Made by a program: the position numbers and the translations under genes
Source: Achromobacter xylosoxidans A8
GTDB lineage: Bacteria; Pseudomonadota; Gammaproteobacteria; Burkholderiales; Burkholderiaceae_B
Assembly: GCF_000165835.1 (NCBI RefSeq)
Contig: NC_014640.1
Coordinates: 4,030,001 to 4,094,000, forward strand
Direction: 5' to 3'
DNA: 64,000 bases
Notes under the pieces: model-generated
What the model was told of the DNA's origin: nothing
Database searches by the model: none
The model's input: the letters and a program-made list of their open reading frames with translations, nothing else
Shown: in pieces, positions 7,872-21,515 of the stretch
How positions within the stretch are numbered: position 1 is the first letter of the stretch
How the letters are laid out: each line of letters begins with the position of its first letter

Positions 7872-8732
7872 ATGTCCGACAAAACCCACGACATCCGCCC
7901 CGGCCAGTCGATCGAACTGCTCAAGGCCCTGCACATCCTGACCCGCGACGGCAAGATGAACCAGGACAGCCGCCGCAAACTCAAACAGGTCTACCACCTA
8001 TTCCAGTTCATCGAACCGCTGCTCAAAGACGTCCAACAACAACGCGGCGCCGTCACCCTCGCCGACCACGGCGCGGGCAAGTCGTACCTGGGCTTCATCC
8101 TCTACGACCTGTTCTTCAAGGAACAGCCCGAGGCGCTGAAGAACGGCTCCCACATCTACGGCATCGAAACCCGCGAAGAGCTGGTGAAGTCGTCGGAAGA
8201 ACTGGCCAAACGGCTGGGGTTTGGCGGCATGTCGTTCCTGAACCTGTCGGTCGCCGATTCGATCACGTCGGACAAACTGCCCGCCACAATCGATGTGGTC
8301 ACCGCCCTGCACGCCTGCAATACCGCCACCGACGACGCGATTCATTTCGCCTTGGAGAAGAAAGCCAAGTACATCGTCGTCGTGCCCTGCTGCCAGGCGG
8401 AAGTCGCTTCGGTGCTGCGCAAGAACAAGGCGAAGGCGCTGGCCGATCCGCTGGCTGAGATTTGGCGGCATCCGCTGCATACGCGGGAGTTTGGGAGCCA
8501 GATCACCAATGTGCTGCGCTGTCTGCAACTGGAAGCGCACGGGTATCAGGTCAGCGTGACTGAGCTGGTCGGGTGGGAGCATTCGATGAAGAATGAACTC
8601 ATCATTGCGCAGTACAAGGATTTGCCGCGCAGGAAGCCGGCTGAGCGGCTGACGGAGATGCTGGATAGGATCGGGTTGCAGGAGTTGAAGGATCGGTTCT
8701 TTGTGCCGCAACCTGCAGAGGCGGCGGCGTAA
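7872..8732 (+). CDS. SAM-dependent methyltransferase-like protein (METTL25/RRNAD1 type)
   Basis: 286-aa protein. After a helical N-terminus (LLKALHILTRDGKMNQDSRRKLKQ) comes a Rossmann-like core with TLADHGAGKSYLGFIL as motif I, YGIETREELV as motif II, IDVVTALHACNTATDDAI and IVVVPCCQAEV. The DxGxGKSYL and PCCQ elements resemble the methyltransferase domain of METTL25/RRNAD1-like proteins. ATG 7872 is preferred over the in-frame TTG 12 nt upstream. Neither target nor activity can be read off. Confidence 0.75.
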   Translation: MSDKTHDIRPGQSIELLKALHILTRDGKMNQDSRRKLKQVYHLFQFIEPLLKDVQQQRGAVTLADHGAGKSYLGFILYDLFFKEQPEALKNGSHIYGIETREELVKSSEELAKRLGFGGMSFLNLSVADSITSDKLPATIDVVTALHACNTATDDAIHFALEKKAKYIVVVPCCQAEVASVLRKNKAKALADPLAEIWRHPLHTREFGSQITNVLRCLQLEAHGYQVSVTELVGWEHSMKNELIIAQYKDLPRRKPAERLTEMLDRIGLQELKDRFFVPQPAEAAA

Positions 8733-8841
8733 GCGCCTGTCCTGCATCATGCCGCAGCGTCAGCATCCGTGGTGCGTGCCGTAATCTGCTGTCGGATGCA
8801 CCGCATGACGCGGTGAACGCCATTCGAGCAACATTCCCCAC

Positions 8842-9417
8842 ATGTCTTCTCGCCCGCGCAAGGCATCCCCAGAACAGACGGCGCTGCTAACAGCGGCCTT
8901 CCCCGCGCGACTGCGAGCCGAAGCAGCGCATATCGCCGAGGAGATCTGCCCCTCGGTCATGAGCGGCCGCGGCTTGTCCGTCATCGTGCAGGACGAGCCA
9001 TTGACGCTGCCCTATCGCGTTCAGCATGGGGGCAGCGATTCCCTGTTTTCCAAGCTGGACGAACCCCAGGCTCTGATCTACGCGTGCATGCAGTCACGCC
9101 ATCACGACGGCCACGTGCGCCAGCGCCAGATTGAGCGGCTGGCTGGGGCATCCGAACCTTGGGTTGTGCCGTTCGTGGTGCAGCTCTGCAGCGAATACCT
9201 CGTTGAAATCCTGCAGGACATCGAGGCGCGCTTGCCCTTGCTGGACAAGCGCGTCTATGGACCGGTTCTTCGAAGCAATCCGGCCTTTCTGGATCTGGCG
9301 CAGCAACGCATGACCAGCTACTGGGATTGCTACTACCGGCGGCGCGGAGTCAGAAGCGAAACCTATGTCGGGTTTCGCTTGTTCAAGCAGTTTCACGACT
9401 GGCAAGTCTCCGGCTAG
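8842..9417 (+). CDS. Hypothetical protein
   Basis: 191 aa, no family recognised. Mostly soluble, Arg/Leu/Glu-rich and probably alpha-helical; the middle (PFVVQLCSEYLVEILQDIEARL) looks amphipathic and the C-terminus is basic (YYRRRGVRSETYVGFRLFKQF). Base composition matches the core genome. It stands alone, 109 nt after the methyltransferase gene. Confidence 0.72.
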   Translation: MSSRPRKASPEQTALLTAAFPARLRAEAAHIAEEICPSVMSGRGLSVIVQDEPLTLPYRVQHGGSDSLFSKLDEPQALIYACMQSRHHDGHVRQRQIERLAGASEPWVVPFVVQLCSEYLVEILQDIEARLPLLDKRVYGPVLRSNPAFLDLAQQRMTSYWDCYYRRRGVRSETYVGFRLFKQFHDWQVSG

Positions 9418-9450
9418 GACCTCACCAGCCTGAAACGCCCGATCCGCGGA

Positions 9451-9663
9451 TCAATTGCCAGAGCTGCGGCGCAACCGATCGGACGAGTTCTTGTTCAAGC
9501 GCTTCGCCTCGTCTTCCGCGTAGTCTTCCTCACCCTCTTCGTACTTGCCTTCATACATGCAGCTGCTGCGGTTCCATCCGCACTCGCCGCCTAATGAACA
9601 ACCGGAACCCAACGCGGCGAGAAACAAGAAGATGCTGCAACGGCCTAATCTTTGAATCGACAT
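9451..9663 (-). CDS. Small lipoprotein
   Basis: 70 aa with a type II signal peptide: MSIQRLGRCSIFLFLAALGSGC, lipobox LGSGC. The mature part is very acidic (YEEGEEDYAEDEAKR) and short, with two further Cys (GGECGW, SSCMY). Function unknown. Convergent with the preceding hypothetical gene. Confidence 0.68.
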   Translation of the reverse strand: MSIQRLGRCSIFLFLAALGSGCSLGGECGWNRSSCMYEGKYEEGEEDYAEDEAKRLNKNSSDRLRRSSGN

Positions 9664-9943
9664 ATCGCTCCCTGGTGATCGGGGTTAGTGTACGGGATGG
9701 GGATGACGACTGAGCCGGCGTGACCTGAGCCTGAACTGGAAACGACCGCCACCCATGGCGCGGATTTCGGCTCAAGTGTGCTCAATTTGGCACGGGTCAC
9801 GCTTGATTGCGATGCCCGTCGGACTCGATACTGGCACCGCAATCCCACAAAGATCGCCCAGATTGACAGCTGGAAAAGACGGACGACATGGTCGCTGCAA
9901 TGGCGGCTGCCTTCTCTTCTTTACGTCAAGCCTGGAGCGACTG

Positions 9944-10255
9944 ATGGACGATCACCCTTTGACTCATGACCGATGGGCCACGCCGGACGATCCGGAGCTC
10001 GTCTCCGTACGGTTTGCTGAACTTCGGAAAACGGAACGGGCTTGCTTGGGAATTTGGGCAATAAGTCGAATTGTTGGGAATAGTGCAAATGAGTTGGATC
10101 GCACTAGCACCCAGCCGCTAGATTCTTGGATTATCTCCAATCTGCTAGGCGCGGTTGAAAGTCTCTGCGATCACATTGCTGACGTTGTGGGGTCTGCGCT
10201 TGCGGAGCCTACAGGAGAGCTTCAAGTCGCGACGGAGCAGAAGCCAATTCATTGA
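9944..10255 (+). CDS. Small conserved helical protein (full-length copy)
   Basis: 103 aa beginning MDDHPLTHDRWATPDD. The C-terminal two-thirds (CLGIWAISRIVGNSANEL, ISNLLGAVESLCDHIADVV) looks like a two/three-helix bundle and ends KPIH. A paralogue with a missing N-terminus lies at 15206-15439, so the accessory island sits between two copies of this gene family. Function not recognised. It marks the left edge of the island. Confidence 0.65.
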   Translation: MDDHPLTHDRWATPDDPELVSVRFAELRKTERACLGIWAISRIVGNSANELDRTSTQPLDSWIISNLLGAVESLCDHIADVVGSALAEPTGELQVATEQKPIH

Positions 10256-10269
10256 ATGACTTGCCTAGA

Positions 10270-10300
10270 ACGAGCCCACGTCCAAGTGGCACGGGCTCGT
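10270..10300 (+). terminator. Stem-loop after small helical protein gene
   Basis: ACGAGCCC (10270-10277) and GGGCTCGT (10293-10300) form a perfect 8-bp stem, with a smaller CCAC/GTGG pairing possible inside the loop. It begins 15 nt after the stop codon. No U-tract follows, so intrinsic termination is only probable. Confidence 0.5.
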
Positions 10301-10678
10301 CTTCCGGTGGCACCTAGATCGAATAAGAAAAAGTCTGCTTACGAGCCGAAGCGCCCCCTCATGGCACCTTGCACGATCCTCCGCACTCTGGCTGAGTGAA
10401 CGCAATAACGTCTTTCAGACTTCGCTAGCATTTCGCAATTGATAGGTGCGTCCTTCCGTTGGGGAGCCCCATCGACCAAACATTAAACGGTCGTCCTGAA
10501 CTCTGGAATTTCGTCTTAGCGCCCATGCAAAAAAACACTTCAACACGGTAACGAAGTGTTATGCAGTACTATCGTCGAGCAAATTGACTTCAAGGCCCGA
10601 CTCGACCGAAAAGGCGTGAGCCACCGCCGATCGAGTGGCCCTTTCCGGCAACATGAAACATTGTAACGGTGCGGTTCA
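10301..10678. other. Gene-free stretch at the left of the island
   Basis: No convincing coding region. It holds one clear hairpin, AACACTTC (10534-10541) with GAAGTGTT (10553-10560). On the minus strand the stem is followed by seven T, so it is a textbook intrinsic terminator reading leftward, although no leftward gene now precedes it. This may be a relic of a lost gene. Confidence 0.5.
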
Positions 10679-11108
10679 ATGAATACTGACGAACGTTGGC
10701 TCCTTCTCAATATGCTCGATGAAGAACTACTAAAAGGGGGGCGTTGTTCTATCCGAATGGTGTTCTTTCATCGTTCGAGAAACCGATATTGCTTTCGTCA
10801 ACGGCGCACACTTAGCGACAATTTGCACCGCGGTTTCCGGTATTGAGGCTCACCTCCGATCGGAATCTACAGCGAAAGGCAGTGACCGCCTTGTGCAGTT
10901 GATAGAGAATTCGCCAATCTCGGACGACTTAAAGGCGGATCTCCATAAGCTACGAAAATACAGAAATCGCTGGGTACATGTAGATGAACCTTGGAGCGAC
11001 AGAATGTTGATCGACGAACCTACCGCAATGGAAAGCGAGCTCGAGAACATGGCATTCTTTGCAGCGCGAACCCTGCGAAAGGCGATCTATGCAAACCAAT
11101 GTATCTAA
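10679..11108 (+). pseudogene. HEPN-like small protein, frameshifted at a G6 tract
   Basis: An ATG at 10679 opens a frame (MNTDERWLLLNMLDEELLKGG) that is lost at a run of six G (10736-10741). Skipping one G joins it to VVLSEWCSFIVRETDIAFV and runs without a stop to 11108, giving about 142 aa. The joined protein contains KLRKYRNRWVH, which fits the R-x4-6-H motif of HEPN ribonuclease-like domains. First gene of the island operon, 55 nt before the PIN fusion gene. The shift may be a true mutation, a slippage-controlled switch or a sequence error. Confidence 0.6.
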
Positions 11109-11163
11109 GCATTGTGCTCCTTAGGCCAGCCGAAACATCTTTCACAAATGTCAGGGGGTGAAG

Positions 11164-12654
11164 GTGCCGCAACGTTTAAGATTCTTGTTGGATACAAACG
11201 TTCTTATCCCACTTCAAGATTCACTTCAAATTCTTGAAGGCAGCCTAGCTAACTTCGTACGACTGGCAAGCATTGGTGGTCATCAGTTGATGTATCACCC
11301 GGCGAATATCGCTGACTTCGAACGAGATCCTAACGCGGACCGCCGCCAAAGAAATCTCCAACGAATCAGACAGTACCCCGCACTAGTTGCGCCGGCGTCA
11401 TGCATTTGGAACACTCCCGAGACTGGCCCAAACGACGCATGTGACAATGAGCTTCTCTATGCACTTCACTGTGATGCCGTTCACGCATTAGTTACGGAAG
11501 ATCGAGGCATCCATGCGAAGGCCCGCTTACTTGGGCTTGCGCGTCGAGTCTACACAGTGCAGACGGCGGAAGACTGGCTAAAGCGTCTTCACGAAACGCG
11601 TCAGATCGTTTTGCCGAACATCCAAGACGTGCCATTGCACAGTCTGACGCCAGAGTTGCGTGGAACTTTTTTTGACAGTCTACGAGAGGGCTATCCAGCG
11701 AAGGCTGGCCGCGATGGCTTCGATGATTGGTTCCGCCGCAAGGCAAGAGAGGATAGGTACGCATGGATATACCGACACGATAGCGGCGCCTTGGGTGCCC
11801 TTTGCATCTATCAGATCCAGAACGATGAGATTCTGAACGACGCTGGCGATGTCCTGTCCGGCCCGGCTCTAAAGCTATGTACTTTCAAGGTAGGCGAAGC
11901 CGTTCGTGGCCGGAAGATTGGTGAGCTGTTTCTCAAAGCAGCTTTCCGCTTTGCGACTGAAAACCAATGCCAATACCTTTTCATCACAGCAAAGGCACAG
12001 AGCCAGGATTATCTTATTCGAGTTTGTTCGGATTTTGGTTTCGAAGAACGTGGCACCTATCGCGGAGACTTGGTGCTGGTCAAATCCCACCCTGTCGGCC
12101 AGCCACCGGCAGAGAGTATCACTCCGATCGAATATGTGAGACGGTATTTTCCGCACTACAGGTCAGACTCCTCAGTGCAAAAATTCCTCGTCCCGATTCA
12201 ACCGCGTTATCACGGCATCCTATTTCCTGACTACACATCGATTCAATCTAGTCTTTTTGCTCCTTCAGGCCACGTGGGCAACGCGATTAAGTTGGCATAT
12301 CTTTGTCACGCACAGACAAAGTCCATACGCCCCGGGGATGTTTTGCTTTTTTATCGAACCAATGACGAAAAATCCGTGACTTCGCTAGGCGTTGTCGAGC
12401 GATTTGAAGTTTCCAGCGATGGTGCCGAAATCGCTAGCTTGGTCAGTCGTCGCACGGTCTACAGCCTTGCTGAAATTGACGAGTTGGCGAAGAAGCCAAC
12501 CAAAGTTATTCTCTTTCGCCTAGTCACCCATCTTTCCAACGGCGTCTCGTATGACCAGCTCATACTAGACGGCGTCGTGACGGGACCGATTCAATCTATT
12601 CGCAAGGTTTCTGATGTCTCTTTTTCCAGAGTCCTCGCCGCATCCAAGCGGTAG
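11164..12654 (+). CDS. PIN-GNAT-PUA/EVE-like three-domain fusion protein
   Basis: 496 aa. Residues 1-140: PIN-type nuclease domain, with acidic residues in FLLDTNVLI (Asp10), in ADFERDPN, and in CDNELLYALH and VTEDRGIHAKA. About 165-310: GNAT acetyltransferase, with the AcCoA-loop region RGRKIGELFLKAA followed by FITAKAQSQDYLIRVCSDFGF. About 335-490: PUA/EVE-like domain (SIRPGDVLLFYRT, SLGVVERFEV). GTG 11164 is chosen because AGGGGG lies 6 nt upstream; GTG 11158 has no spacing. The downstream ASCH gene overlaps by 41 nt. Suggests an RNA-targeting effector or tRNA/RNA modifier (inference). Confidence 0.7.
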   Translation: MPQRLRFLLDTNVLIPLQDSLQILEGSLANFVRLASIGGHQLMYHPANIADFERDPNADRRQRNLQRIRQYPALVAPASCIWNTPETGPNDACDNELLYALHCDAVHALVTEDRGIHAKARLLGLARRVYTVQTAEDWLKRLHETRQIVLPNIQDVPLHSLTPELRGTFFDSLREGYPAKAGRDGFDDWFRRKAREDRYAWIYRHDSGALGALCIYQIQNDEILNDAGDVLSGPALKLCTFKVGEAVRGRKIGELFLKAAFRFATENQCQYLFITAKAQSQDYLIRVCSDFGFEERGTYRGDLVLVKSHPVGQPPAESITPIEYVRRYFPHYRSDSSVQKFLVPIQPRYHGILFPDYTSIQSSLFAPSGHVGNAIKLAYLCHAQTKSIRPGDVLLFYRTNDEKSVTSLGVVERFEVSSDGAEIASLVSRRTVYSLAEIDELAKKPTKVILFRLVTHLSNGVSYDQLILDGVVTGPIQSIRKVSDVSFSRVLAASKR

Positions 12655-13081
12655 AGTCGTTCTGCTCTCCATTAAACCAAAATACGCCGACTTGATACTT
12701 GCAGGGTCAAAACGTGTCGAGTTTCGTCGGTCTTGGGCTGCTCAGGATGTAAGCGCTATTGTGCTCTATTCAAGCTCACCAATTCGGAAAATCGTTGGCG
12801 TAGTAGAAGTACTGGATTCTATCGTCGCATCGCCTTCCTCTCTTTGGATGATATGCCGAAACAACGGTGGCGGCCTGACGAGAGCCGACCTCCGGTCTTA
12901 CTTTGCTAACAAGTCGAAAGGCGTTGCCGTGCTATTGGGAAAGGTATTAGAGCTGCCTCAACATCTAGAACCGTCCGAGGTGATCAAGGACTTTGCACCC
13001 CCGCAATCTTTCCGATATATGGCTAGTATCGAATGCATGAAACTTGAAGAACAGATGAAAAAAAGAAAGGGTCAGCCATGA
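12614..13081 (+). CDS. ASCH domain (PUA-like) protein
   Basis: 155 aa. The ASCH signature VVLLSIKPKYADLILAGSKR-VEFRR is at residues 14-38, followed by IVLYSSSPIRKIVGVVEV. ASCH domains belong to the PUA-like superfamily, and characterised members bind RNA or hydrolyse acetylated nucleosides. The start overlaps the PIN-GNAT gene by 41 nt and the stop overlaps the ATPase gene (ATGA), so all three are translated together. Two PUA-superfamily modules in one operon point to nucleic acid or modified base recognition. Confidence 0.8.
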   Translation: MSLFPESSPHPSGRVVLLSIKPKYADLILAGSKRVEFRRSWAAQDVSAIVLYSSSPIRKIVGVVEVLDSIVASPSSLWMICRNNGGGLTRADLRSYFANKSKGVAVLLGKVLELPQHLEPSEVIKDFAPPQSFRYMASIECMKLEEQMKKRKGQP

Positions 13082-13659
13082 CGCTCTTCGTTGGCGGAGT
13101 TCATGCTGTCGGGAAGACGTTCATCCTTAGCTCTGTCTGCAACGAGTTAGGGTTGAGACATGCAACCGCGAGCCAGCTAATCAGAGAGCAACGAGGGTTT
13201 GCTAACTGGACAGCTTCTCGACAGATAGAGGATATCGACGAAAACCAACGGACTTTGGTCGCAGCGACTAGACGACTCGAGAAAAACGGCGAAACTATCG
13301 TTCTCGATGGACACTTGGTTTTACGTCGGGCGGAGAACGTCCACGAAAAAATAAAAATAGAGACATTTAACCAATTGATGATTCAGGGGGTAATCCTTAT
13401 CGAGGCGTCCGCCGAAGTGATCACCAATAGGCTTCGCAAGCGAGGAGACCTAACGTGGCAGCACTCCGAGATCGAAGTGTTTGCTCAAAAGGAACTCGAA
13501 CATGCCGAGGACGTATGTGCGCAGCTAGGCATTTCGCTTGTGAGATTACGCTCCCCGACTTCGTTGGAAATGAAAACAGCACTCGCAGCCCTCATGGCCA
13601 AAATGCAAATAAAACAAGAGCATCAGACCACGCCCCCCTCGCAGTCAGGCTTCGCTTGA
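13078..13659 (+). CDS. P-loop ATPase/nucleotide kinase-like protein
   Basis: 193 aa, adenylate-kinase-like. Walker A GVHAVGKT is at residues 7-14, TIVLDGHLVL is a Walker-B-like strand, and ITNRLRKRGDLTW resembles a lid-region Arg motif. It contains no long membrane or DNA-binding segment. Last gene of the island operon, coupled to the ASCH gene by ATGA. It could phosphorylate a nucleotide or RNA end, or act as the regulatory NTPase of the PIN-GNAT effector; neither is established. Confidence 0.75.
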   Translation: MTLFVGGVHAVGKTFILSSVCNELGLRHATASQLIREQRGFANWTASRQIEDIDENQRTLVAATRRLEKNGETIVLDGHLVLRRAENVHEKIKIETFNQLMIQGVILIEASAEVITNRLRKRGDLTWQHSEIEVFAQKELEHAEDVCAQLGISLVRLRSPTSLEMKTALAALMAKMQIKQEHQTTPPSQSGFA

Positions 13660-13714
13660 ACGTTCACATTTTTATGGGCGCACACGAGGAAGCGTCATGA
13701 ATTAAAAGGAAAAC

Positions 13715-13729
13715 GTGTCAGACTACAAT
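13715..13729 (+). repeat. Dispersed repeat copy GTGTCAGACTACAAT
   Basis: One of several copies in this window of an A-rich tract followed by GTGTCAGACTACAAT. It lies exactly between two modules of the island: after the ATPase gene (stop 13659) and before the metallo-beta-lactamase gene (start 13763). See also 15151-15200, 19371, 19750/21035 and 56687. Confidence 0.75.
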
Positions 13730-13762
13730 CTGTCGGTTTCCCTCCAATGGAAGAATAGTTGA

Positions 13763-15052
13763 ATGGGATTGCATAAGTTCGAAATCTTGCCCGAGACGCT
13801 ACCACTCCCCAGGCCGCTTTATCTCTGGGCCCGTGTTGAGTCCGTTGATGTTGTGGAACGACCGAACGATAAAAGTACGCCCACGGCAGTATCTCTGGAT
13901 GCCTTGGCGTGCGAAGATCTTCGAGACTTGGAGTCTCTTACTCCTCTCGAGCCTAAGTGGCTTCGACATATCACTCTACATTTTCCACGCCCAGATTCCC
14001 GAGGTGGGCCCGCTGAGTTCGATAGTGGCTACAAGGAGGGCGACTGGCTACGATTGACGCTATCCATTCATGCTCACGGACCACTAGGCTTCATCGAAGG
14101 CCCCTTTCCTTCACTTCTACCTGGGGAGGACACGGCGGCCAGCGATCATCCGGTCTTTTTCGGAAGACTCGCCTGGATTCGGCGTACAGAGCCCCACGAA
14201 AGCCGCCTGCTATCGGACCGATGTAAGTGTGAAGTCGTCGACCAGTTGGGGCCGAAATCTCTTTCAATCATTTCGGAGGTCGATGGTTCAACAGTGCGAT
14301 TACCAGACCTTCTGGTGAGAGTTGTCGATGTAGGCCAAGCCAGTTGCAACGCCATTCATAGTCAACACCATCTCAGTCGTGTGGTGGGCTACTTCGACGT
14401 TGGTCGTCCGCTATGGTTTCAATCCAAATCGTGGCCGACTACGCCCCCTTCCATCCCCACGCCAAAGAATGCTTTCGTAGTTTTATCACACTGGGACTAC
14501 GACCATTACTCAATGGCCTTGGGATTTCAAAAGGCATTATTGAACCTCAGTTGGTTTGCGCCAGCACCACAACATCCAGGTCCGACGGTCGCAGCTCTGA
14601 TAAAACGTCTTGGCAGGAATCTGAGTCTCTGCTCTGCAGGCATGCATGCGATCAATAGCAACGTGCGCGTCTATGCATGCACAGGACCGACCAACGATAA
14701 GAATCAATGCGGCTACGCCATGCAAGTACAAACAACTCAGGGCAACATCCTGATGGCGGGAGATGCCGATTACCAATACATACCATCGCCAGCGAAGCGA
14801 GACCTCAAAGGGCTTGTAATATCCCACCATGGGGGAGGTAACACTGGAACTCCACCAACGCCTTCCGGGCCGGGTAACGCAGTCGTATCGTTTGGTGTAC
14901 CCAACAAATACCACCATCCCGTAGCCGCACAAATCAAGCAACATACCGCAGCCGGTTGGGTAGTGGTCGCCTCAAATTGGGCTAAACACCCAGATCTGGC
15001 ACCAATGAAACGAATTGCTGGAGCAACGCGTCGTAAGGATCATTGGCTATAA
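13763..15052 (+). CDS. ComEC-type metallo-beta-lactamase fold hydrolase
   Basis: 429 aa. About 190 N-terminal residues of unassigned beta-rich sequence precede an MBL domain of the ComEC/Rec2 kind: VVDVGQASCNAI, then SHWDYDH (Ser242, His243, Asp245, Asp247, His248) as the metal-binding HxHxDH variant with the first His replaced by Ser, LMAGDADY, and LVISHHGGGNTG. Soluble, with no membrane segments, unlike ComEC itself. Such stand-alone proteins recur in bacterial conflict loci, and nuclease or phosphodiesterase activity is likely. Bracketed by copies of the GTGTCAGACT repeat. Confidence 0.8.
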   Translation: MGLHKFEILPETLPLPRPLYLWARVESVDVVERPNDKSTPTAVSLDALACEDLRDLESLTPLEPKWLRHITLHFPRPDSRGGPAEFDSGYKEGDWLRLTLSIHAHGPLGFIEGPFPSLLPGEDTAASDHPVFFGRLAWIRRTEPHESRLLSDRCKCEVVDQLGPKSLSIISEVDGSTVRLPDLLVRVVDVGQASCNAIHSQHHLSRVVGYFDVGRPLWFQSKSWPTTPPSIPTPKNAFVVLSHWDYDHYSMALGFQKALLNLSWFAPAPQHPGPTVAALIKRLGRNLSLCSAGMHAINSNVRVYACTGPTNDKNQCGYAMQVQTTQGNILMAGDADYQYIPSPAKRDLKGLVISHHGGGNTGTPPTPSGPGNAVVSFGVPNKYHHPVAAQIKQHTAAGWVVVASNWAKHPDLAPMKRIAGATRRKDHWL

Positions 15053-15150
15053 GAAGGTAAGCGAGGTAAATCAACGCCTGCTATGGTGACCTGCCCCCAG
15101 ATCTAGTACGGCACCAACATAGAGTCCAAGGGTAAATGGCCATCGTAAAA

Positions 15151-15200
15151 AATGGTGCCAGACTACAATTTAAGGAGCGAAATTGTAGTCTGACACCATT
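15151..15200. repeat. Inverted pair of the dispersed repeat (21-bp arms)
   Basis: Left arm 15151-15171 (AATGGTGCCAGACTACAATT...) and right arm 15180-15200 are inverted copies differing at one base, with an 8-nt loop AAGGAGCG. The arms carry the same GTGTCAGACTACAAT core seen at 13715. The structure looks like a REP/BIME-type hairpin. Homology between the two small helical protein genes resumes a few nt after the right arm. Confidence 0.8.
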
Positions 15201-15205
15201 ATTTT

Positions 15206-15439
15206 CGATTTTCAGACCTTCGGAAGATGGAGCGGGCTTGCCAGGGGATCTGGGCAATTAGCCGAATCGTTGGCAACGGAGCAAATGACTTGGAGACGGC
15301 CGGTAGCCAGCAGCTCGATCCTTGGGTTGTCTCCAACTTGCTAGGCGGCATTGAAAGTCTATGCGATCACATCACAGATCTTGTTGAATCTGCTCTTGAT
15401 GAAGTCAGATTCACCGATGAAGCAAAACCGATTCATTAA
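15206..15439 (+). pseudogene. N-terminally truncated paralogue of the small helical protein
   Basis: From 15206 the frame reads RFSDLRKMERACQGIWAISR, matching RFAELRKTERACLGIWAISR of the intact copy at 9944-10255, and continues collinearly to the same KPIH ending. The first 23 or so codons are replaced by the inverted repeat at 15151-15200. An internal ATG at 15227 could still give a 70-aa product. Nucleotide identity to the other copy is roughly three quarters by eye, so this is an old duplicate. Confidence 0.65.
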
Positions 15440-15454
15440 GAGATTTTTCTGACA

Positions 15455-15481
15455 GAGTCAGCATTGACACGATGCTGACTC
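15455..15481 (+). terminator. Stem-loop after truncated paralogue
   Basis: GAGTCAGCAT (15455-15464) pairs perfectly with ATGCTGACTC (15472-15481) around a 7-nt loop, 15 nt after the stop codon. No U-tract follows. It lies between rightward and leftward genes. Confidence 0.6.
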
Positions 15482-15602
15482 GCGATAGTACAGCCAGAGC
15501 GTCAGATGCAAGAGGGTCAGCTTACGACCCAAAGCGGGCATTCAAGAATGTCGTTCTCTATGGCGAATTTGGAATATAGCGATCTATTTTCGACAGCAAT
15601 TG

Positions 15603-16583
15603 TTATATGTTGTCTCCCAGGATTAGTGAATCAACGTTACTTTCAAACTCTCGCTGTTGCGCTGTGTCAGCATTAAGTTTTGTTTCTTGACCTTTCAGAT
15701 TATCGAGAAAGAAAATAATTGAATCTATATTTTGAAGTAGCTTGCACAGAATCTTAACTCTATCGATACTAGCGTTTGAAGCCTTCGGCCAGCTTACTGT
15801 GTACTCGCGCCTTGCGCTATATCCATCATCTCTATCTTCAGTTTTTGCCGTGTTAAGAATTTTTTCTCTTAAATCATTAACATTAACGCACGAACCTATT
15901 TGAAGAAGAATCGCGGCGGGACTAATTTTCATGTCTTCCATGCAAAGCTGAAAAATCATGCTGTTGCGATTAAACTCCCCATTCCTATAATTTAGTTCAT
16001 TATTTAAGATATCAACAATCACGCCTCTGATGTTAATGCAATGCTGACTAAGAATAAATTCAGTTTTGAAATACCCAATATCAACCTTGGTCGTGGCGTG
16101 AATGTGGCACAGCAAAACTTCAAAAAAAGTTTCTATCTCACTAGAGAGTTTTAAAATAGCAGAGTTCTTTTCACTCGCCGCCCCCCTCGAGGAATAGTCA
16201 CTAGCTGAATGATAAATTTCTTTCAAATCAGGAATTCTTGTGTATATCCAATTGAGCACTTCTTCAGCGTCTCTGGATACTTGGAAAGCCGTATGGATAA
16301 GCATTGAATCATTTGTTAGCGATCTCAATCTCACCCATGTATTAAATACAGTCCCTCGCTTTACAGTCAAATCTCTGTGATCCCTGGCGGCCAGTTGTTT
16401 ACTCAGGTTTTCATGAAAAAGACTGACTGCTTTGGAAAAATCAAATATAACTACTTCTGATTTTTCGGTCCTCTTGGAAAACAAATTAACGTAGTCAGCC
16501 AGGCCGTGCTCGTCGACCGCTTTTATATATTTACCCGTACTTCTATCCAAGAGCAGTGACCTTACTGCTAAATCAGTGTTCAT
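15603..16583 (-). CDS. Hypothetical protein, AT-rich
   Basis: 326 aa, no family recognised. The gene is strikingly AT-rich compared with its surroundings, which indicates recent acquisition. The protein looks soluble and largely helical, with a putative amphipathic C-terminus (ILCKLLQNIDSIIFFLDNLKG) and several Cys/His (LLCHIHATTKVD, ILSQHCINIRG). It is the last gene of the leftward group that includes the caspase-like protease and membrane nuclease; whether it belongs to that system is unknown. Confidence 0.7.
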   Translation of the reverse strand: MNTDLAVRSLLLDRSTGKYIKAVDEHGLADYVNLFSKRTEKSEVVIFDFSKAVSLFHENLSKQLAARDHRDLTVKRGTVFNTWVRLRSLTNDSMLIHTAFQVSRDAEEVLNWIYTRIPDLKEIYHSASDYSSRGAASEKNSAILKLSSEIETFFEVLLCHIHATTKVDIGYFKTEFILSQHCINIRGVIVDILNNELNYRNGEFNRNSMIFQLCMEDMKISPAAILLQIGSCVNVNDLREKILNTAKTEDRDDGYSARREYTVSWPKASNASIDRVKILCKLLQNIDSIIFFLDNLKGQETKLNADTAQQREFESNVDSLILGDNI

Positions 16584-16631
16584 TAAACGATCCTAGAAGG
16601 TTGGTTGCCTACAAATTTCTTAATGCGTGCA

Positions 16632-16901
16632 TTACTCAACTGGTTTGCTGGTCTGAATGTTGAAATCTGAAAAATTGCCGTTTTGATGCAATCGCTTGAA
16701 TCGCTGTGCAAAAACTTCAGGATACTTCCCACGCAGCGAATGACAGTACGGATAGGTTAATATTATGTCGAAATACAACTTTTTTTCGAATAACCCCCAT
16801 GAAGAAAAACCTTCATCGACCGCCTTTTGGCAAAAGCGGATTGGACATTGGTTTTCAACCCAGAGCCGCCCGCCGCCCCACGACAAAGCACCGAAACCCA
16901 A
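16632..16901 (-). CDS. Possible small protein
   Basis: 89-aa open frame between two leftward genes. The C-terminal part (YCHSLRGKYPEVFAQRFKRL) looks like real protein sequence, but no family is recognised, there is no clear Shine-Dalgarno, and the composition of the first 15 residues (WGGGRLW) is suspect. It could be a remnant. Confidence 0.3.
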   Translation of the reverse strand: MGFGALSWGGGRLWVENQCPIRFCQKAVDEGFSSWGLFEKKLYFDIILTYPYCHSLRGKYPEVFAQRFKRLHQNGNFSDFNIQTSKPVE

Positions 16902-16942
16902 CCCATTTTTTCTCTTAGCGGCATGAGGTTTTGGTCGCGCTA

Positions 16943-17833
16943 CTACGCTGCCGCAGATGGCTTCTGAGCGTTGAAAAAACTCGTTGCTTGAGCCTTTGCT
17001 TTCGCCAGTGAGGCCGCGAAGCGATCCGCATTCTCCGGGATTTCCTCTATCATGAAAAACTCTGAGAATCTGCGATCAAGAAAGCCGAATGCCAAAGTCT
17101 CCCCTATTTTTTCGATCTCGGCCTGCTGTTCGGAATTTACTGTTTTCGATTCTCGCTTCAATTGTTCGATGATTTTTTCGGCTCGCTCTTTTAGGCGTTC
17201 GGGCGTGCAGTCATTTCGGAGGTAAGCATCTGCGAGCTTAAAGAACCAGTCTTCCACCGACGTGGTGAGAAAGCCGCCAACAGTCAGGCGGTGTGCGAGT
17301 AGCGCTTGAAGAGCAGCCGGCGCAGTTGGCGTCGTCAAAAGTGCTCTGTAAAAGTCACGGAAGCTACGGAGAAGTTCGTCGGGCAAGACCGTATGAGTAG
17401 GGCCGACCAAGGCGAAACAGGGCGCAGGTGCCGTCGGCTTGATGCTGCCCACGAAGTGACCACCAAAGCAAGCCGCTACGCACACAACCAAGTTAAAACG
17501 CGTCGCCTCGTTCAGTAAACCGAGCGACTGTGCCAAATCATCCCAGCCCAGGGACGAGCCATCGGCAAACGCGAGGCCGGACTTGTCGCCCCAGCCGTGG
17601 GTCTCGATATGTAGGATAGGGAATTCATCGTTATCCCGGGCAGACAACGTGAGTTCGCGAATTTTGGCGAGAAATCCGTCGCACCCCTGTACCGTCTCTA
17701 GTTCCGCGAGGGGCGCTTCGGGATTGTCTTCTCTGAGGCCATTGATGGACTCGCACAGCGAAGTGCCGGATTTAAAGTCGGTCGGCTTTAACGACTCGAT
17801 GATTGTGACTTTGCTAAAGCTGAAATTAGACAT
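16943..17833 (-). CDS. Caspase/CHAT-like (clan CD) protease
   Basis: 296 aa. The catalytic pair of clan CD cysteine peptidases is visible: His79 in FPILHIETHGWGD after a hydrophobic strand, and Cys122 in NLVVCVAACFGGHF after the next strand, the usual H-G ... C-x-G layout. The C-terminal half (about 190-296) is charged and helical (LKERAEKIIEQLKRESK) and may be a regulatory or substrate region. ATG 17833 is chosen because the family-like sequence starts there and GGGG lies upstream. Bacterial caspase/CHAT proteins commonly act in abortive-infection systems by cleaving partner proteins; here the likely partner is encoded upstream (membrane nuclease). Confidence 0.7.
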   Translation of the reverse strand: MSNFSFSKVTIIESLKPTDFKSGTSLCESINGLREDNPEAPLAELETVQGCDGFLAKIRELTLSARDNDEFPILHIETHGWGDKSGLAFADGSSLGWDDLAQSLGLLNEATRFNLVVCVAACFGGHFVGSIKPTAPAPCFALVGPTHTVLPDELLRSFRDFYRALLTTPTAPAALQALLAHRLTVGGFLTTSVEDWFFKLADAYLRNDCTPERLKERAEKIIEQLKRESKTVNSEQQAEIEKIGETLAFGFLDRRFSEFFMIEEIPENADRFAASLAKAKAQATSFFNAQKPSAAA

Positions 17834-17935
17834 TCTATGGCCCCGATTGGGTTTTTTTATATGGATCGAATGATAAGACACTGAGATGCCAAGCGTCAGT
17901 AAATGCATAGCTCAACTATTGCCATTGACTGCGCA

Positions 17936-18124
17936 TCAGTTAGAAGCCGTTGCTAAAAAGACAACGGTAATTACTGCTTTTCGCCAATAGCCGACCTTCA
18001 TAACGCACCACTGTCGGCACGGAGCGGACGCAGCCAGCCCAAAAGAGTGGACGCTCAATGCTGAAAATGTGGTGCACCCCGCGCATATCGCCGCGTTGAG
18101 TTCACGCAGATTATCAATCTTCAT
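17936..18124 (-). CDS. Possible small protein between nuclease and protease genes
   Basis: 62-aa frame whose ATG overlaps the stop of the membrane nuclease gene (ATGA), the arrangement of a coupled gene. It is Cys-rich (ICAGC, APCRQWC) with a hydrophobic C-terminus (VITVVFLATA). No family recognised; the overlap is the main support. The 102 nt from its stop to the protease gene hold no other gene. Confidence 0.3.
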   Translation of the reverse strand: MKIDNLRELNAAICAGCTTFSALSVHSFGLAASAPCRQWCVMKVGYWRKAVITVVFLATASN

Positions 18125-19110
18125 TCGACCTTCGATAGGCCGGATGGGCGTTTCAAATAAACCGCCAATTGTCCTTCGGTGAGAAAGGTCACTCCAGGAA
18201 GATCGATATTTTCATCCGCGGAAATAATCGGCGCCTTAGTTACTACGATGCACTCATCAGCACCAAGGCTGGATGCAGCAGCGCGCAATCTCTCGGCCAA
18301 TTGAGCCAGGACAGGTATCGGAACCCTGCGCGTCCAAGACTTTACCTCGATAAGAAATTTACGTCCGTCGCGTTCGACCAAAAAATCGCCGGCCACCACC
18401 TCAGAAGATAAGACTTGAAGATTGGCGCCGGACTTTTTGAGTGTGCTCGCCACATTTCGTTCAAAGCGAATTGACTGTTCGATTCCCTGACTTTTTGTCG
18501 TCGGTTCTTCTTGCGCGGCGCGAATTCTGTAGGCGGTGAGAAACAATGCGATCATGGCCAGGCTGGCGATCGCGGTCAAAATGGCGGGCCAAAGAAGTTC
18601 GGGGCGCTCGGTATCAAGATTCGCAATACTCGGAAGCGCAGCGACTATCGCGCCAACTATAGACGCCAGGACAGCCATGAGCGTAACCGCCCGCATTCTC
18701 TCGATCTGTGCATGCTTAATTTCAACCTCTTCGGCGGCCACCGCCTCGACCGGCTTCGCTTCACTTTCTAGAAGTGCCGGAGTAATTCGGTCGACCATCT
18801 TTCGACGTTCGTCGGGAGGTACGAGATCGCTTTCCACTATGCGCGTATAGAGAGTATTTAGAGTTTGCAGGACGGATAGTAAGTCGTCTGGCTGAACCCG
18901 GAAGTCACGAGCCTTTCCGTCTATGAGACGTTCAATGTCAAGACGGTTCGGGACATAGCCTTCGAGAATGAGTCGACGAAAGATAATCTTCTCCACCTCG
19001 ACGTTGCATGCTGCAATGCGCTCTTTCTTCGCACCGATAGTTTGTCGATAGCCAATCAGGAATAGCCCAAACGATACGACGATCCCAAAAATCGAAAGAA
19101 ATGTGTCCAT
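18121..19110 (-). CDS. Membrane-anchored PD-(D/E)XK nuclease-like protein
   Basis: 329 aa. Membrane segments at about residues 3-22, 141-161 and 173-193, with a charged helical region between the first and second. The C-terminal cytoplasmic domain (about 205-329) has the restriction-endonuclease core: Glu217 in IRFERNVA, Asp242 in AGDFLVERDGR and Glu255-x-Lys257 in FLIEVKSW, as in Mrr/NERD-like domains. ATG 19110 has AGGGTAGG just upstream. Head of the leftward group with the caspase-like protease. A membrane-tethered nuclease fits an effector that attacks DNA (inference). Confidence 0.72.
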   Translation of the reverse strand: MDTFLSIFGIVVSFGLFLIGYRQTIGAKKERIAACNVEVEKIIFRRLILEGYVPNRLDIERLIDGKARDFRVQPDDLLSVLQTLNTLYTRIVESDLVPPDERRKMVDRITPALLESEAKPVEAVAAEEVEIKHAQIERMRAVTLMAVLASIVGAIVAALPSIANLDTERPELLWPAILTAIASLAMIALFLTAYRIRAAQEEPTTKSQGIEQSIRFERNVASTLKKSGANLQVLSSEVVAGDFLVERDGRKFLIEVKSWTRRVPIPVLAQLAERLRAAASSLGADECIVVTKAPIISADENIDLPGVTFLTEGQLAVYLKRPSGLSKVE

Positions 19111-19312
19111 CCTACCCTGACTCCGTCTTGACTCATGATCCAGCGGCAGCACTTCCGGCTAGTTCGTGCTCTCGCCGCTCTATTTAATCACGGCGTGCGG
19201 CGCCTCTCCACCGACGTTGTGAACCTATATAACGGCTATTGAGGCCAAAACTTGAGTTCGGGTTGAGCATACATTCTGAGATGCGTCGATTTAAGTCTTC
19301 TAACGGTCGCTT

Positions 19313-19336
19313 CCTCTTTGCCTCTTTGCCTCTTTG
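19313..19336 (+). repeat. Short tandem repeat, CCTCTTTG x3
   Basis: Three perfect copies of the 8-mer CCTCTTTG in a row, in the non-coding stretch between the nuclease gene and the insertion sequences. Possible slippage tract with no evident gene to control. The rest of 19111-19540 shows nothing else apart from the repeat copy at 19371. Confidence 0.7.
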
Positions 19337-19370
19337 CCGGAAGCAGCTATTTTCAAATGACAGGAAAAAA

Positions 19371-19380
19371 GTGTCAGACT
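19371..19380 (+). repeat. Dispersed repeat copy, GTGTCAGACT (short)
   Basis: GTGTCAGACT preceded by an A6 run (GGAAAAAA), as in the other copies, but diverging afterwards into CTGAGGTTTCC. It lies between the nuclease gene and the IS4-type fragment. Confidence 0.6.
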
Positions 19381-19540
19381 CTGAGGTTTCCCCGCGAAGT
19401 TCCAGGGAAACTCATTCTGAATCAATGGCTTGTTGCGCGGGGCGGAGGCAAGCTTTTGGCTTGTAGATGATCAAGGGCGTGCATGGCGCCAGTCTTATAC
19501 CCTTCATAGGGCGACCAAACCGTTTGAAGGAAGACAGGCC

Positions 19541-19740
19541 ATGCACGCAGTCGGAGTATTGCAGAAGCTGCTCCAGGATTCGATCCCCAGCCTGCATCTA
19601 AGCCAGCTCAAGGCCTTGACGAGCACTGTGCGAAGTACGATGACAACCCGGCGGCTGACTCTCAGTGGACTGGCGCGTGGTTTGCCGGCCGACCAGGCAA
19701 TCAGGCATCGGATCAAGCGGGTGGACCGGCTGCTGGGCAA
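19541..19740 (+). pseudogene. IS4-family transposase, 5' fragment
   Basis: MHAVGVLQKLLQDSIPSLHL...IRHRIKRVDRLLG is the characteristic N-terminus of IS4-family transposases. About 66 codons remain; at 19741 the sequence switches into an A-run and the GGTGTCAGAC repeat, so the rest of the element (normally about 400 codons) is gone. The frame then reads into unrelated sequence. The upstream 60 nt probably belong to the original element, but no end could be identified. Confidence 0.75.
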
Positions 19741-19749
19741 GAAAAAAAG

Positions 19750-19758
19750 GTGTCAGAC
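19750..19758 (+). repeat. Dispersed repeat copy split by the IS3 element
   Basis: GTGTCAGAC stops at the left end of the insertion sequence, and GTCAGACTACAA resumes right after its right end (21035-21046). Removing the element restores GGTGTCAGACTACAA, matching the copies at 13715 and 15151. GTCAGAC (7 bp) is therefore present on both sides as a direct repeat. Confidence 0.75.
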
Positions 19759-19819
19759 TGAGCTAACCCGGGTTTTCCGGACACCCGAAGAAGTAGACAA
19801 TACTTGAAGGAGGTGTCCC

Positions 19820-20152
19820 ATGGATAAATCCAAACCCGAAGGCAAGCCGCTTGAAGCCAAACGCCAGTATCACAGTCGGGAGTTCAAGATCGAGGCGGTC
19901 AGACAACTGGAGGAAGGCAAGGTCAGCGGCACGCAACTATCGCTGATGCTGGGCGTGAAGCGGTCGATTATTTACCGATGGAAGAAAGAGCTGGCGACAC
20001 ACGGCCCAGACGTCTCATTTCCCGGTAAAGGCAAGGCTCGCACCGACGAGCAGACCGAGATTCAGCGCCTCAAGCGTCAGTTGGCCGAGGTCACCGAAGA
20101 GCGCGATATCTTAAAAAAAGCGGCAGCGTACTTTGCGCGGGAACTGCCGTGA
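19820..20152 (+). CDS. IS3-family transposase OrfA
   Basis: 110 aa. N-terminal helix-turn-helix (REFKIEAVRQLEEGKVSGTQ to LGVKRSIIYRWKKEL) and a C-terminal leucine-zipper-like coiled coil (EIQRLKRQLAEVTEERDILKK). Near its end lies the slippery run of seven A plus G (20113-20120). A -1 shift there enters the orfB frame without meeting a stop, so an OrfAB fusion transposase can be made. Confidence 0.93.
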   Translation: MDKSKPEGKPLEAKRQYHSREFKIEAVRQLEEGKVSGTQLSLMLGVKRSIIYRWKKELATHGPDVSFPGKGKARTDEQTEIQRLKRQLAEVTEERDILKKAAAYFARELP

Positions 20153-21003
20153 GGTACGCCTTTGTGCAGGCTCATCAGCAGCAGTTCCGGGTCGCTCGGT
20201 TATGCCGGGCCTTGCACGTCAGCCGCAGCGGGTATTACGACTGGCAACGTCGTGAACCCTCGGCAAGGCAGCAAGAGGACGTCAAGCTGCTCGCGGCCAT
20301 CGAGCAGACCCATCAGACCTGCCGGCAAGCGTATGGCGCGGAAAAGACCTGGCGCGCGCTTAACGCCAACGGCGTGGCGTGCGGCAAGCATCGCGTCGCA
20401 AGACTGCGACGCCAAGCCGGCATCGAGGCGCTGCGCAAGCAGCGGTTTCGTCGGCTGGAGAAGCATTCGCTGCTGGGGCCAGCCCCGAACCGCCTGCAAC
20501 GTCAGTTCACCGTGCAATGTCCCAATAAAGTCTGGGTGGGCGACATAACGGTTGTACCAACACGGACAGGCTGGCTATATCTGGCCGTACTGCTGGATCT
20601 CTACTCTCGGTCGGTGATCGGCTGGAGCATGGCCGAGAAGGCCGACCGCAGGTTGTTGATCCATACACTTCAAATGGCCCTAGCCCGGCGCCGTCCCGAT
20701 CCTGGACTGTTGCACCACAGCGATCGCGGTGCGCAGTACAGTTCGGCAGAGTACCGAGGCATGCTTAAGGACCACGGCATCATCATCAGCATGAGCGCCA
20801 AGGGGGATCCCTACGACAATGCCGTCGCAGAGAGCTTCTTCAGCAACTTAAAGAACGAATTAACGCATCACAAGGTCTTCCACAGCAGGGAGCATGCGCG
20901 GCTGGCGATCTTTAACTACATTGAGGTCTTCTATAACCGCCAGCGAATCCACCAGGGGCTAGGTTATCGAACCCCTGCCCAGGTCGAGGCCTCCGTGTCT
21001 TAA
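20149..21003 (+). CDS. IS3-family transposase OrfB (DDE catalytic subunit)
   Basis: 284 aa from GTG 20149 overlapping the orfA stop; normally produced as part of OrfAB by -1 frameshifting. The DDE residues are visible: Asp in WVGDITVVPT, Asp in LHHSDRGAQYSS and Glu in NAVAESFFSNLKNEL. The N-terminal HTH_21-like region (HVSRSGYYDW) is also present. No interruption seen. Confidence 0.93.
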   Translation: MRYAFVQAHQQQFRVARLCRALHVSRSGYYDWQRREPSARQQEDVKLLAAIEQTHQTCRQAYGAEKTWRALNANGVACGKHRVARLRRQAGIEALRKQRFRRLEKHSLLGPAPNRLQRQFTVQCPNKVWVGDITVVPTRTGWLYLAVLLDLYSRSVIGWSMAEKADRRLLIHTLQMALARRRPDPGLLHHSDRGAQYSSAEYRGMLKDHGIIISMSAKGDPYDNAVAESFFSNLKNELTHHKVFHSREHARLAIFNYIEVFYNRQRIHQGLGYRTPAQVEASVS

Positions 21004-21103
21004 CCAAACTGTCCGAGAAATCCGGGTCAGCTCAGTCAGACTACAACTCTCTCGGCAGATTGCAGCCAAACACCATTTCTCCCACGCGCAAAGGGGATAA
21101 CCC

Positions 21104-21433
21104 ATGCCAAAGTTCGTTACCATCGGATATGGCGATCAAGAGGGCTACGACCGTACGCCCGCAGCCATCCGAAACGCAGCGCATGCGCACGACGCAAAAT
21201 TGCGAAAAGACGGGGTATTGATGGGCGTCGCAGGCAAGCCCATACAAGTGCGCAACCACGAGGCCGCCCGGGTCGAAACAACGCCCGGTCCATTCATGAG
21301 ATCGCCCTTACCAGTAGCAGGCTTCGCCATCATCGAAGCCGCCGACATGGCCGAGGCTATAGCAATGGTGTCGCAAACGCCCTGCGCCGTCGCGCACGGG
21401 GTCGTTGAAGTGTGGCCGCTAGAACAGCCGTAG
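21104..21433 (+). CDS. YciI/DGPF-type small protein
   Basis: 109 aa. Contains RNAAHAHDAKLRKDGVLMGVAG and FAIIEAADMAEAIAMVSQTP, the helix-strand pattern of the YciI/YCII-related (dimeric alpha/beta-barrel) family. Family members are small enzymes or accessory domains, often near sigma factors; the reaction is unknown here. AAGGGG precedes the start. First core-like gene right of the island. Confidence 0.8.
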   Translation: MPKFVTIGYGDQEGYDRTPAAIRNAAHAHDAKLRKDGVLMGVAGKPIQVRNHEAARVETTPGPFMRSPLPVAGFAIIEAADMAEAIAMVSQTPCAVAHGVVEVWPLEQP

Positions 21434-21515
21434 CGACACCGCTCATCCGCACCGCAGGTTTATGTCTCGCAAGAACAAGGGAATAACAGCCCAGCGCCTA
21501 TCCCCTACCCCGCAT

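Follow-up and report, generated by a model that had tools for sequence, protein, structure and literature searches.

Gene organization of the locus

The window, a stretch of 64,000 nucleotides from Achromobacter xylosoxidans A8, harbors an intact operon of three complete ORFs, all on the forward strand, at 11158–12654, 12614–13081, and 13078–13659 (genes 1, 2, and 3, respectively). Genes 1 and 2 overlap by exactly 41 nt and genes 2 and 3 by exactly 4 nt (ATGA), and the GC content of the operon genes is 0.48–0.51 as against 0.66 in both flanks; both the overlaps and the foreign composition had been noted in the original prediction. It had also described four tightly packed rightward genes, which holds for the three ORFs but not for the first gene, a HEPN-like gene at 10679–11108 on the same strand, which is broken into two frames and ends 49 nt before gene 1 without overlapping it. 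A DNA block at 10676–13505 (forward strand) is kept as a unit in a prophage-like contig, L187, which it matches in a single continuous blastn alignment with 76% identity and in which all four genes are present in the same order. The dN/dS values between the window and L187 are 0.07–0.13 for the four genes, and are approximate because dS is 1.2–1.8. Together with the continuous match, they indicate that the four-gene arrangement is not due to chance.

A search with Rfam gave no match at the gathering score within 8000–22000 of the window. An MBL-fold gene at 13763–15052 was considered as a further operon member and rejected, because the phmmer matches among 85 records were confined to the window itself and a record of the same locus. 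The span outlined at the outset from the letters of the window, 10679–13659, almost equals the block matched in L187.

The HEPN-like gene

The 5′ piece of the HEPN-like gene occupies 10679–10846, and its C-terminal piece, in another frame, is open at 10734–11105 with the stop codon extending to 11108 and carries the motif RNxWVH, of the Rx4H form; a whole-genome profile search likewise returned the gene as two pieces. A database protein of 142 aa, P0001, is identical to the HEPN-like sequence over the 124 aa compared. Intact copies of the gene therefore exist, and what separates the two frames here is either a lesion at the strain level or a mistake in assembly. RNxWVH is invariant in 11/11 HEPN-like sequences, while Pfam HEPN models were unmatched and PADLOC matches were weak (about 0.002). 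Open relatives of 142 aa are encoded in L187, giving an open four-gene version there, and in L192, with a similar ORF in L191, and a 142-aa gene lies at the equivalent position in close relatives. The first gene of the plasmid operon of B. anthina was also considered as a HEPN gene, and was rejected as it does not match the HEPN-like gene.

It is quite possible, if somewhat short of an even chance, that the HEPN-like gene is a defence-island passenger functionally unlinked to the operon and brought beside it by shared hot spots, an explanation compatible with any other reading of the system. Besides its break in the window, the gene shows decay in another locus (L006); it was undetected in most of the PIN-GNAT-EVE loci examined, and in L099 and L100 stands without the operon within the 9–11 kb fetched around it. 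Against this, the gene is rare: of 399 genomes sampled from the order, it was found in three, the window's own genome among them. Yet all three viral loci found by HEPN alone have it no more than 1 kb from the system, one of them with the gene adjoining AAA_17 together with a divergent PIN-GNAT-EVE protein of 31% identity. The HEPN-like gene is a recurrent, though optional, partner of the operon, and its original inclusion in the system stands as to recurrence but not as to a constant, intact component.

The PIN-GNAT-EVE protein

Gene 1 (11158–12654, forward strand) encodes a protein of 498 aa that corresponds to PDC-M11A of PADLOC and consists of a PIN domain (about residues 7–147), a GNAT domain (153–316), and a PUA/EVE-ASCH-like domain (337–498) in this order. 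The PDC-M11A model matches residues 8–497 of 498 (E 4e-142). The ORF opens with GTG 11158, and an in-frame GTG at 11164 is a possible alternative start; the PIN residue first numbered Asp10 does exist when counted from 11164, but is Asp12 from 11158.

The PIN domain is predicted from a profile match to the PIN protein 3ix7 (E 0.0011) and from its acidic residues, of which D12, D96, and D115 are present in 78/78 family members and D93 in 77/78, consistent with an acidic active site; Pfam PIN_3 matched 5 of the 78. The predicted structure (pLDDT 92.5) shows the GNAT domain at 153–316 and the PUA/ASCH-like fold at 337–498, and its fold matches consist of GNAT and ASCH chains, with no PIN chain among the matches listed and the PIN part barely covered. 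The C-terminal domain finds its best fold match in the ASCH protein of Zymomonas mobilis. The model therefore agrees with a central GNAT domain and a C-terminal EVE (PUA-like) domain, and the proposal that PIN, GNAT, and PUA-like domains share one chain is upheld, the first by profile and residues and the other two by predicted structure.

K239, G251, G255, and E256 of the GNAT domain are conserved in 78/78 members. The acetyl-CoA loop of GNAT proteins is canonically Q/R-x-x-G-x-G/A. The corresponding loop of gene 1, R250-x-x-K253-x-G255, departs from this motif: the middle Gly is replaced by Lys in 76/78 members and by Arg in 2/78, while G255 is retained in 78/78. Acetyl transfer by gene 1 is therefore not assured.

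The ASCH and P-loop proteins

Gene 2 (12614–13081, forward strand; 155 aa) encodes an ASCH protein of the PUA fold, the second PUA-type module expected in the operon, and is matched by the PDC-M11B model of PADLOC over residues 10–147 of 155 (E 2.1e-53). Among solved structures, it is most closely related to the Zymomonas mobilis ASCH protein (5guq/5gus; Kim et al., 2017, PMC5615036), whose Lys53 is not a conserved feature of the operon family: this column is basic in just 23 of 67 ASCH sequences, which makes an RNase activity of the ASCH protein uncertain. The idea that the EVE and ASCH domains are recent duplicates was discarded, since their profiles do not match (hhalign probability 1%, E 0.055) and the folds alone agree; a joint alignment of ASCH and PIN-GNAT-EVE rows was left out, as ASCH was apparently placed on the EVE part.

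Gene 3 (13078–13659, forward strand; 193 aa) was taken at first for a P-loop ATPase. AAA_17 is its best Pfam match, AAA (PF00004) falls below its cut-off (E 0.053), and its profile matches are mostly adenylate and UMP/CMP kinases. The protein is thus a P-loop enzyme nearer to nucleotide kinases than to AAA+ ATPases, and judging from these matches is better called adenylate-kinase-like. In common with archaeal adenylate kinases such as 1nks, 1ki9, and 7owe it has the P-loop, conserved arginines, and an Asp-x-His motif, but it differs from them in being encoded within an operon and in belonging to a family often fused to ASCH. ASCH-kinase fusions are frequent across the loci and speak for the kinase as a member of the core control unit. 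An alignment in which 40/40 AAA_17 rows were split was left out.

Co-occurrence, mobility, and genomic neighborhood

As anticipated, the three intact genes strongly co-occur in other genomes: ASCH adjoins PIN-GNAT-EVE in 78/79 genome loci and AAA_17 accompanies it in 57/79, the 22 loci without AAA_17 including at least three (L039, L060, and L064) whose sequence ends too early to tell. The system also decays: in 3/79 loci (L053, L056, and L078), gene 1 is divided among separate ORFs. Among 399 genomes of the order, a full-length PIN-GNAT-EVE match was found in five and a partial match only in six more.

The (PIN)-GNAT-EVE family is distributed over bacteria, archaea, plasmids, and phages, and its loci include phage, plasmid, and restriction-modification (R-M) neighborhoods. 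Pattern scans of viral contigs gave 166 GNAT-EVE relatives versus three PIN forms, a comparison between different short patterns, the second of which failed to detect the PIN forms carried by L191 and L192; PIN-GNAT-EVE is present on the viral contigs L187–L189, L191, and L192. Composite loci also occur: PIN-GNAT-EVE, ASCH, AAA_17, GNAT-EVE, and ASCH follow one another on one strand in L101, and AAA_17, GNAT-EVE, ASCH, and PIN-GNAT-EVE in L058. The largest neighbor family (45 loci) was taken for antisense ORFs and discarded. cI-like proteins were found near just 13/83 viral loci, and the copies in prophage Lj965 and in the Helicobacter prophage are located elsewhere.

In prophage Lj965, four tRNA genes adjoin the GNAT-EVE gene, and in L108, which carries one of the closest relatives of this copy, a single doubtful tRNA was called some 0.3 kb upstream. 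Any tRNA was found in only 3/83 viral loci (L107, which is Lj965 again, L108, and L185), and the distances of tRNAs in PIN-GNAT-EVE loci are scattered. A general association with tRNA genes was therefore rejected, and tRNA as the target has little genomic support.

Proposed working and alternatives

It is about as likely as not that the operon, a mobile (PIN)-GNAT-EVE/ASCH/AAA_17 module (PDC-M11) with an added HEPN-like gene, works as a toxin-antitoxin-like, RNA-targeting, anti-phage system, close to the single RNA-targeting conflict system originally envisaged. The PIN-GNAT-EVE protein would be the effector: its PUA-like domain may bind a particular RNA, perhaps a modified one, with tRNA as a plausible candidate, and its GNAT and PIN sites would acetylate and cut this RNA or its charged amino acid, so that translation would stop in the infected cell. 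Its partner, ASCH, which is frequently fused to the adenylate-kinase-like protein, would restrain or license the effector, probably through RNA binding, the P-loop enzyme would couple it to the nucleotide state, and HEPN would be an accessory, dispensable second RNase. The analysis itself establishes the gene structure, the GNAT and PUA-like folds, the conservation of active-site residues, the linkage by operon and by fusion, and the presence on phages and plasmids, whereas RNA as the target, the toxin and antitoxin roles, the action against phages, and the part played by the kinase are inferred.

A fuller version, fairly improbable in our estimate, is a four-component RNA-conflict system with two or three RNases (HEPN, PIN, and possibly ASCH) plus an acetyltransferase, in which the ASCH-adenylate-kinase unit would exert control as an antitoxin or a nucleotide-gated sensor, and HEPN would be a conditional extra effector that joined distant lineages more than once and was repeatedly lost. 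If so, the kinase would be a control part and not the "non-essential" accessory of the 2020 proposal (Bell et al., 2020, PMC7641849).

An unlikely alternative makes the module an accessory of DNA-base modification or modification-dependent restriction, in which GNAT would acetylate a DNA base and EVE/ASCH would read modified phage DNA together with type I R-M. Bell et al. (2020, PMC7641849) credit Iyer et al. (2013) for DNA-base acetylation, and report that PIN-GNAT-EVE is found close to type I R-M and that ASCH occurs fused to HsdS. HsdM-like neighbors, named by eye, are found in 18/79 loci, and specificity subunits account for 5 of the 127 neighbor proteins scanned; however, a scan of the window ORFs at 8–21 kb revealed no gene of a type I R-M system. 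PIN domains act mainly on RNA, and the invariance of D12, D96, and D115 also speaks against this reading. In phages, the PIN-less homologs show no link to type I R-M (Bell et al., 2020, PMC7641849). That PIN-GNAT-EVE is a host counter-measure destroying the RNA acetylated by phage GNAT-EVE toxins, a proposal of the same authors (Bell et al., 2020, PMC7641849), would suit the excess of GNAT-EVE in the viral scans, differing patterns notwithstanding, and the pairing of both forms in L101 and L058, but is quite improbable, as PIN-GNAT-EVE itself is carried on viral contigs and keeps its GNAT residues, and the composite loci are equally explicable as stacked modules.

Comparison with known systems

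The operon is not undescribed, contrary to the original prediction, but is a HEPN-bearing variant of the known (PIN)-GNAT-EVE/ASCH/AAA_17 type. Bell, Wolf, and Koonin (2020, PMC7641849) present operons in which (PIN)-GNAT-EVE is accompanied by ASCH and often by an AAA_17 ATPase, and credit them to Iyer et al. (2013); the PIN-GNAT-EVE architecture, the ASCH partner, and the AAA_17 third gene are shared with the window operon, which differs in its extra HEPN-like first gene, broken in this genome. The main text of that paper contains no occurrence of "HEPN," and neither the 142-aa HEPN-like gene nor frequent ASCH-kinase fusions were found in it. PDC-M11 of PADLOC-DB (phage defence candidate M11A and M11B) matches genes 1 and 2 over nearly their full length, while the AAA_17 and HEPN genes of the window found no counterpart among the M11 models; a literature search found no paper under the name PDC-M11. 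In Escherichia phage PhiR47_2 (PV340567.1), GevT and GevA are a GNAT-EVE toxin and an ASCH antitoxin according to the depositor's labels; GevT is 25% identical to gene 1 but lacks PIN, and no P-loop or HEPN gene is annotated in the 6.9-kb stretch. Literature searches gave nothing relevant by title on GevT/GevA among the matches listed, no paper on an ASCH domain with adenylate kinase and toxin, and no experiments on (PIN)-GNAT-EVE family proteins. What is new with respect to the known type is the extra HEPN-like gene, which recurs beside the system in some viruses and bacteria.

Organization and identity of the operon

Three genes of the operon are complete ORFs on the forward strand, encoding a PIN-GNAT-EVE protein (gene 1, 11158-12654), an ASCH protein (gene 2, 12614-13081) and an AAA_17 P-loop protein (13078-13659), with overlaps of 41 nt between the first two and 4 nt between the last two. 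The original prediction of four tightly packed genes holds for these three but not for the HEPN-like gene (10679-11108, forward strand), which lies directly upstream of gene 1 as two pieces in different frames and ends 49 nt before it. A 142-aa database protein is identical to the HEPN-like sequence of the window across the 124 aa compared, and therefore intact copies exist. The proposed foreign composition is borne out by a GC of 0.48-0.53 in the measured island genes versus 0.66 in the flanks, and gene 1 has a single match in its own genome.

The PIN-GNAT-EVE/ASCH/AAA_17 grouping was recognized correctly. In PADLOC-DB, gene 1 is PDC-M11A (E 4e-142) and gene 2 is PDC-M11B (E 2e-53), PDC being given as 'phage defence candidate' in the available text of PMC11514479. 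PIN-GNAT-EVE with ASCH, often accompanied by an AAA_17 ATPase, is an architecture already described in the available text of Bell, Wolf and Koonin (2020; PMC7641849), which credits Iyer et al. (2013) and presents all these modules as experimentally uncharacterised at that time. Therefore, the system cannot be called undescribed, as first proposed. The window operon is a HEPN-bearing variant of a known, uncharacterised kind; 'HEPN' has 0 occurrences in the searched main text of PMC7641849, where this variant is without mention.

Conservation and gene fusions

The expected co-occurrence of the three intact genes is found in genome contigs, where the best 80 of 251 relatives were kept and gave 79 loci, so that the counts refer to the closer members of the family. 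In 78 of the 79, an ASCH gene lies next to PIN-GNAT-EVE in the same orientation; the sole exception is L064, whose contig stops 34 nt past the PIN-GNAT-EVE gene. A same-strand AAA_17 gene is present in 57; among the other 22, three contigs (L039, L060 and L064) stop within 0.6 kb, and many of the remainder are recorded as Bacteroidota. Gene 1 is divided between ORFs in three loci (L053, L056 and L078). ASCH and AAA_17 form a single ORF in 6 of the 57 AAA_17-bearing loci, and 104 of the best 120 of 163 relatives found in a protein search with one such fusion have at least 295 aa; thus, the fusion is a real architecture. Gene 1 and ASCH share an ORF only in L047, a MAG, which may reflect an assembly indel.

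The HEPN-like gene

Members of the HEPN-like family are 142 aa long, and R95-N96-x-W98-V99-H100 is invariant in 11 of 11 aligned proteins. The gene is rare among sampled genomes, occurring in 3 of 399 of the order, its own included, and in its own genome alone among 268 genomes of the family, 369 sampled from the class and 398 sampled from the phylum. Viral contigs searched with HEPN alone yielded three loci, all with the PIN-GNAT-EVE system. First, L190, on the same prophage-like contig as L187, has HEPN, PIN-GNAT-EVE, ASCH and AAA_17; this operon lies between baseplate genes and a group made up of lysis genes and a tail terminator, and matches window positions 10676-13505 continuously at 76%. 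Second, L191 has HEPN followed by a PIN-GNAT-EVE gene truncated at the contig end (80% identity across 366 aa). Third, L192 has HEPN followed by AAA_17, while its opposite strand carries PIN-GNAT-EVE (31% identical) together with an ORF of 275 aa that matches ASCH. In L192 (2796-3860) and L191 (2545-3918), the immediate neighbours of the HEPN/PIN-GNAT-EVE genes include a PDC-S33 candidate and a nuclease of the HNH type.

Starting from HEPN, the system is found in four of six independent loci (the window, L187, L191 and L192), within the DNA fetched; the HEPN relatives of L099 and L100 are without it in that span. Starting from PIN-GNAT-EVE, the 79 loci give only a more distant downstream relative in L031 and a remnant with an in-frame stop in L006, whose gene 1 is 86% identical and where the remnant holds the same position next to an assembly gap. 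HEPN is therefore a recurrent yet optional, easily lost partner, and, separately from what the rest of the operon does, it may be a mere passenger. In L099 (5294-6712), the HEPN relative lies beside AbiTii-like and DUF4238-like proteins, as judged by eye.

Carriage by phages and plasmids

Relatives of gene 1 occur in 32 plasmid records (18 covering at least 80% of the gene) and 16 phage records (2 at that coverage). In viral contigs, 80 of the 166 loci found for the PIN-less form, GNAT-EVE, were kept, and a scan with two short patterns gave at least three PIN-GNAT-EVE loci, a lower bound because it missed L191 and L192. ASCH is present in all 83 viral loci, and in 82 of them it lies adjacent in the same orientation; 13 of the loci have AAA_17. 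Two loci carry both forms: L101 (PIN-GNAT-EVE, ASCH, AAA_17, GNAT-EVE, ASCH, all on one strand) and L058 (AAA_17, GNAT-EVE, ASCH, PIN-GNAT-EVE).

In the three lambdoid coliphage records examined (eight Escherichia records being listed), the homologous pair lies directly 3′ of the repressor gene, a site occupied in lambda by the rex exclusion genes. In one of these records, the two genes are annotated as toxin and antitoxin. Other phages carry the pair at different sites, and cI-like proteins are near only 13 of the 83 viral loci. In prophage Lj965 (L104, 1843-3938), four tRNA genes lie directly 5′ of GNAT-EVE and ASCH, and L108 has one doubtful tRNA placed similarly; this pattern, which is not general, could hint at a tRNA target. 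In the archaeal phage psiM100 (L004, 1858-4846), PIN-GNAT-EVE and ASCH follow two ORFs, one possibly HATPase-like as judged by eye and the other DUF4325 STAS-like (Pfam E 6.5e-7), the group lying mostly inside an annotated inserted fragment.

Other features of the island

Two copies of a 193-nt direct repeat (10010-10202 and 15206-15398, 75% identity), with related short ORFs, enclose the operon and an MBL-fold-like gene (13763-15052, forward strand; Lactamase_B E 0.019). The latter has 41 protein-database relatives, one named ComEC/Rec2-like, and was not found in the other PIN-GNAT-EVE loci. At 13710, 15142-15209, 19366 and 19745 there are a REP-like palindrome, whose 30-nt arms are 90% complementary, and dispersed copies resembling GTGTCAGACT. 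Nearby lie an IS3-type orfA/orfB pair (19820-21003) and what may be part of a transposase gene (19430-19807; judged by eye, without a Pfam match). On the reverse strand, a caspase/CHAT-like gene (16943-17908; by eye, Pfam only 0.06-0.13) adjoins a gene with a weak Mrr-type nuclease domain (18121-19152; Mrr_cat E 0.0006, just under the cut-off). The two are possibly a second defence module, and the pair has no PADLOC match.

Proposed function and comparison with described modules

As judged from sequence, the likeliest reading is a putative RNA-targeting, toxin-antitoxin-like anti-phage module. This is because, first, the lambdoid coliphage records examined have the pair after the repressor gene and, in one of them, under toxin and antitoxin labels; second, RNase-type domains are combined with two PUA-fold modules; and third, the genes are carried by plasmids and phages and have type I R-M genes among the neighbours of relative loci. 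Rival explanations are that the operon modifies or reads DNA bases, or that it is a counter-measure against phage GNAT-EVE toxins. In the putative anti-phage module, ASCH and the kinase together would be the control unit, as the ASCH-kinase fusions suggest. The available text of Bell, Wolf and Koonin (2020; PMC7641849) proposes for AAA_17 a 'non-essential, regulatory' function, which a control unit of this kind would exceed.
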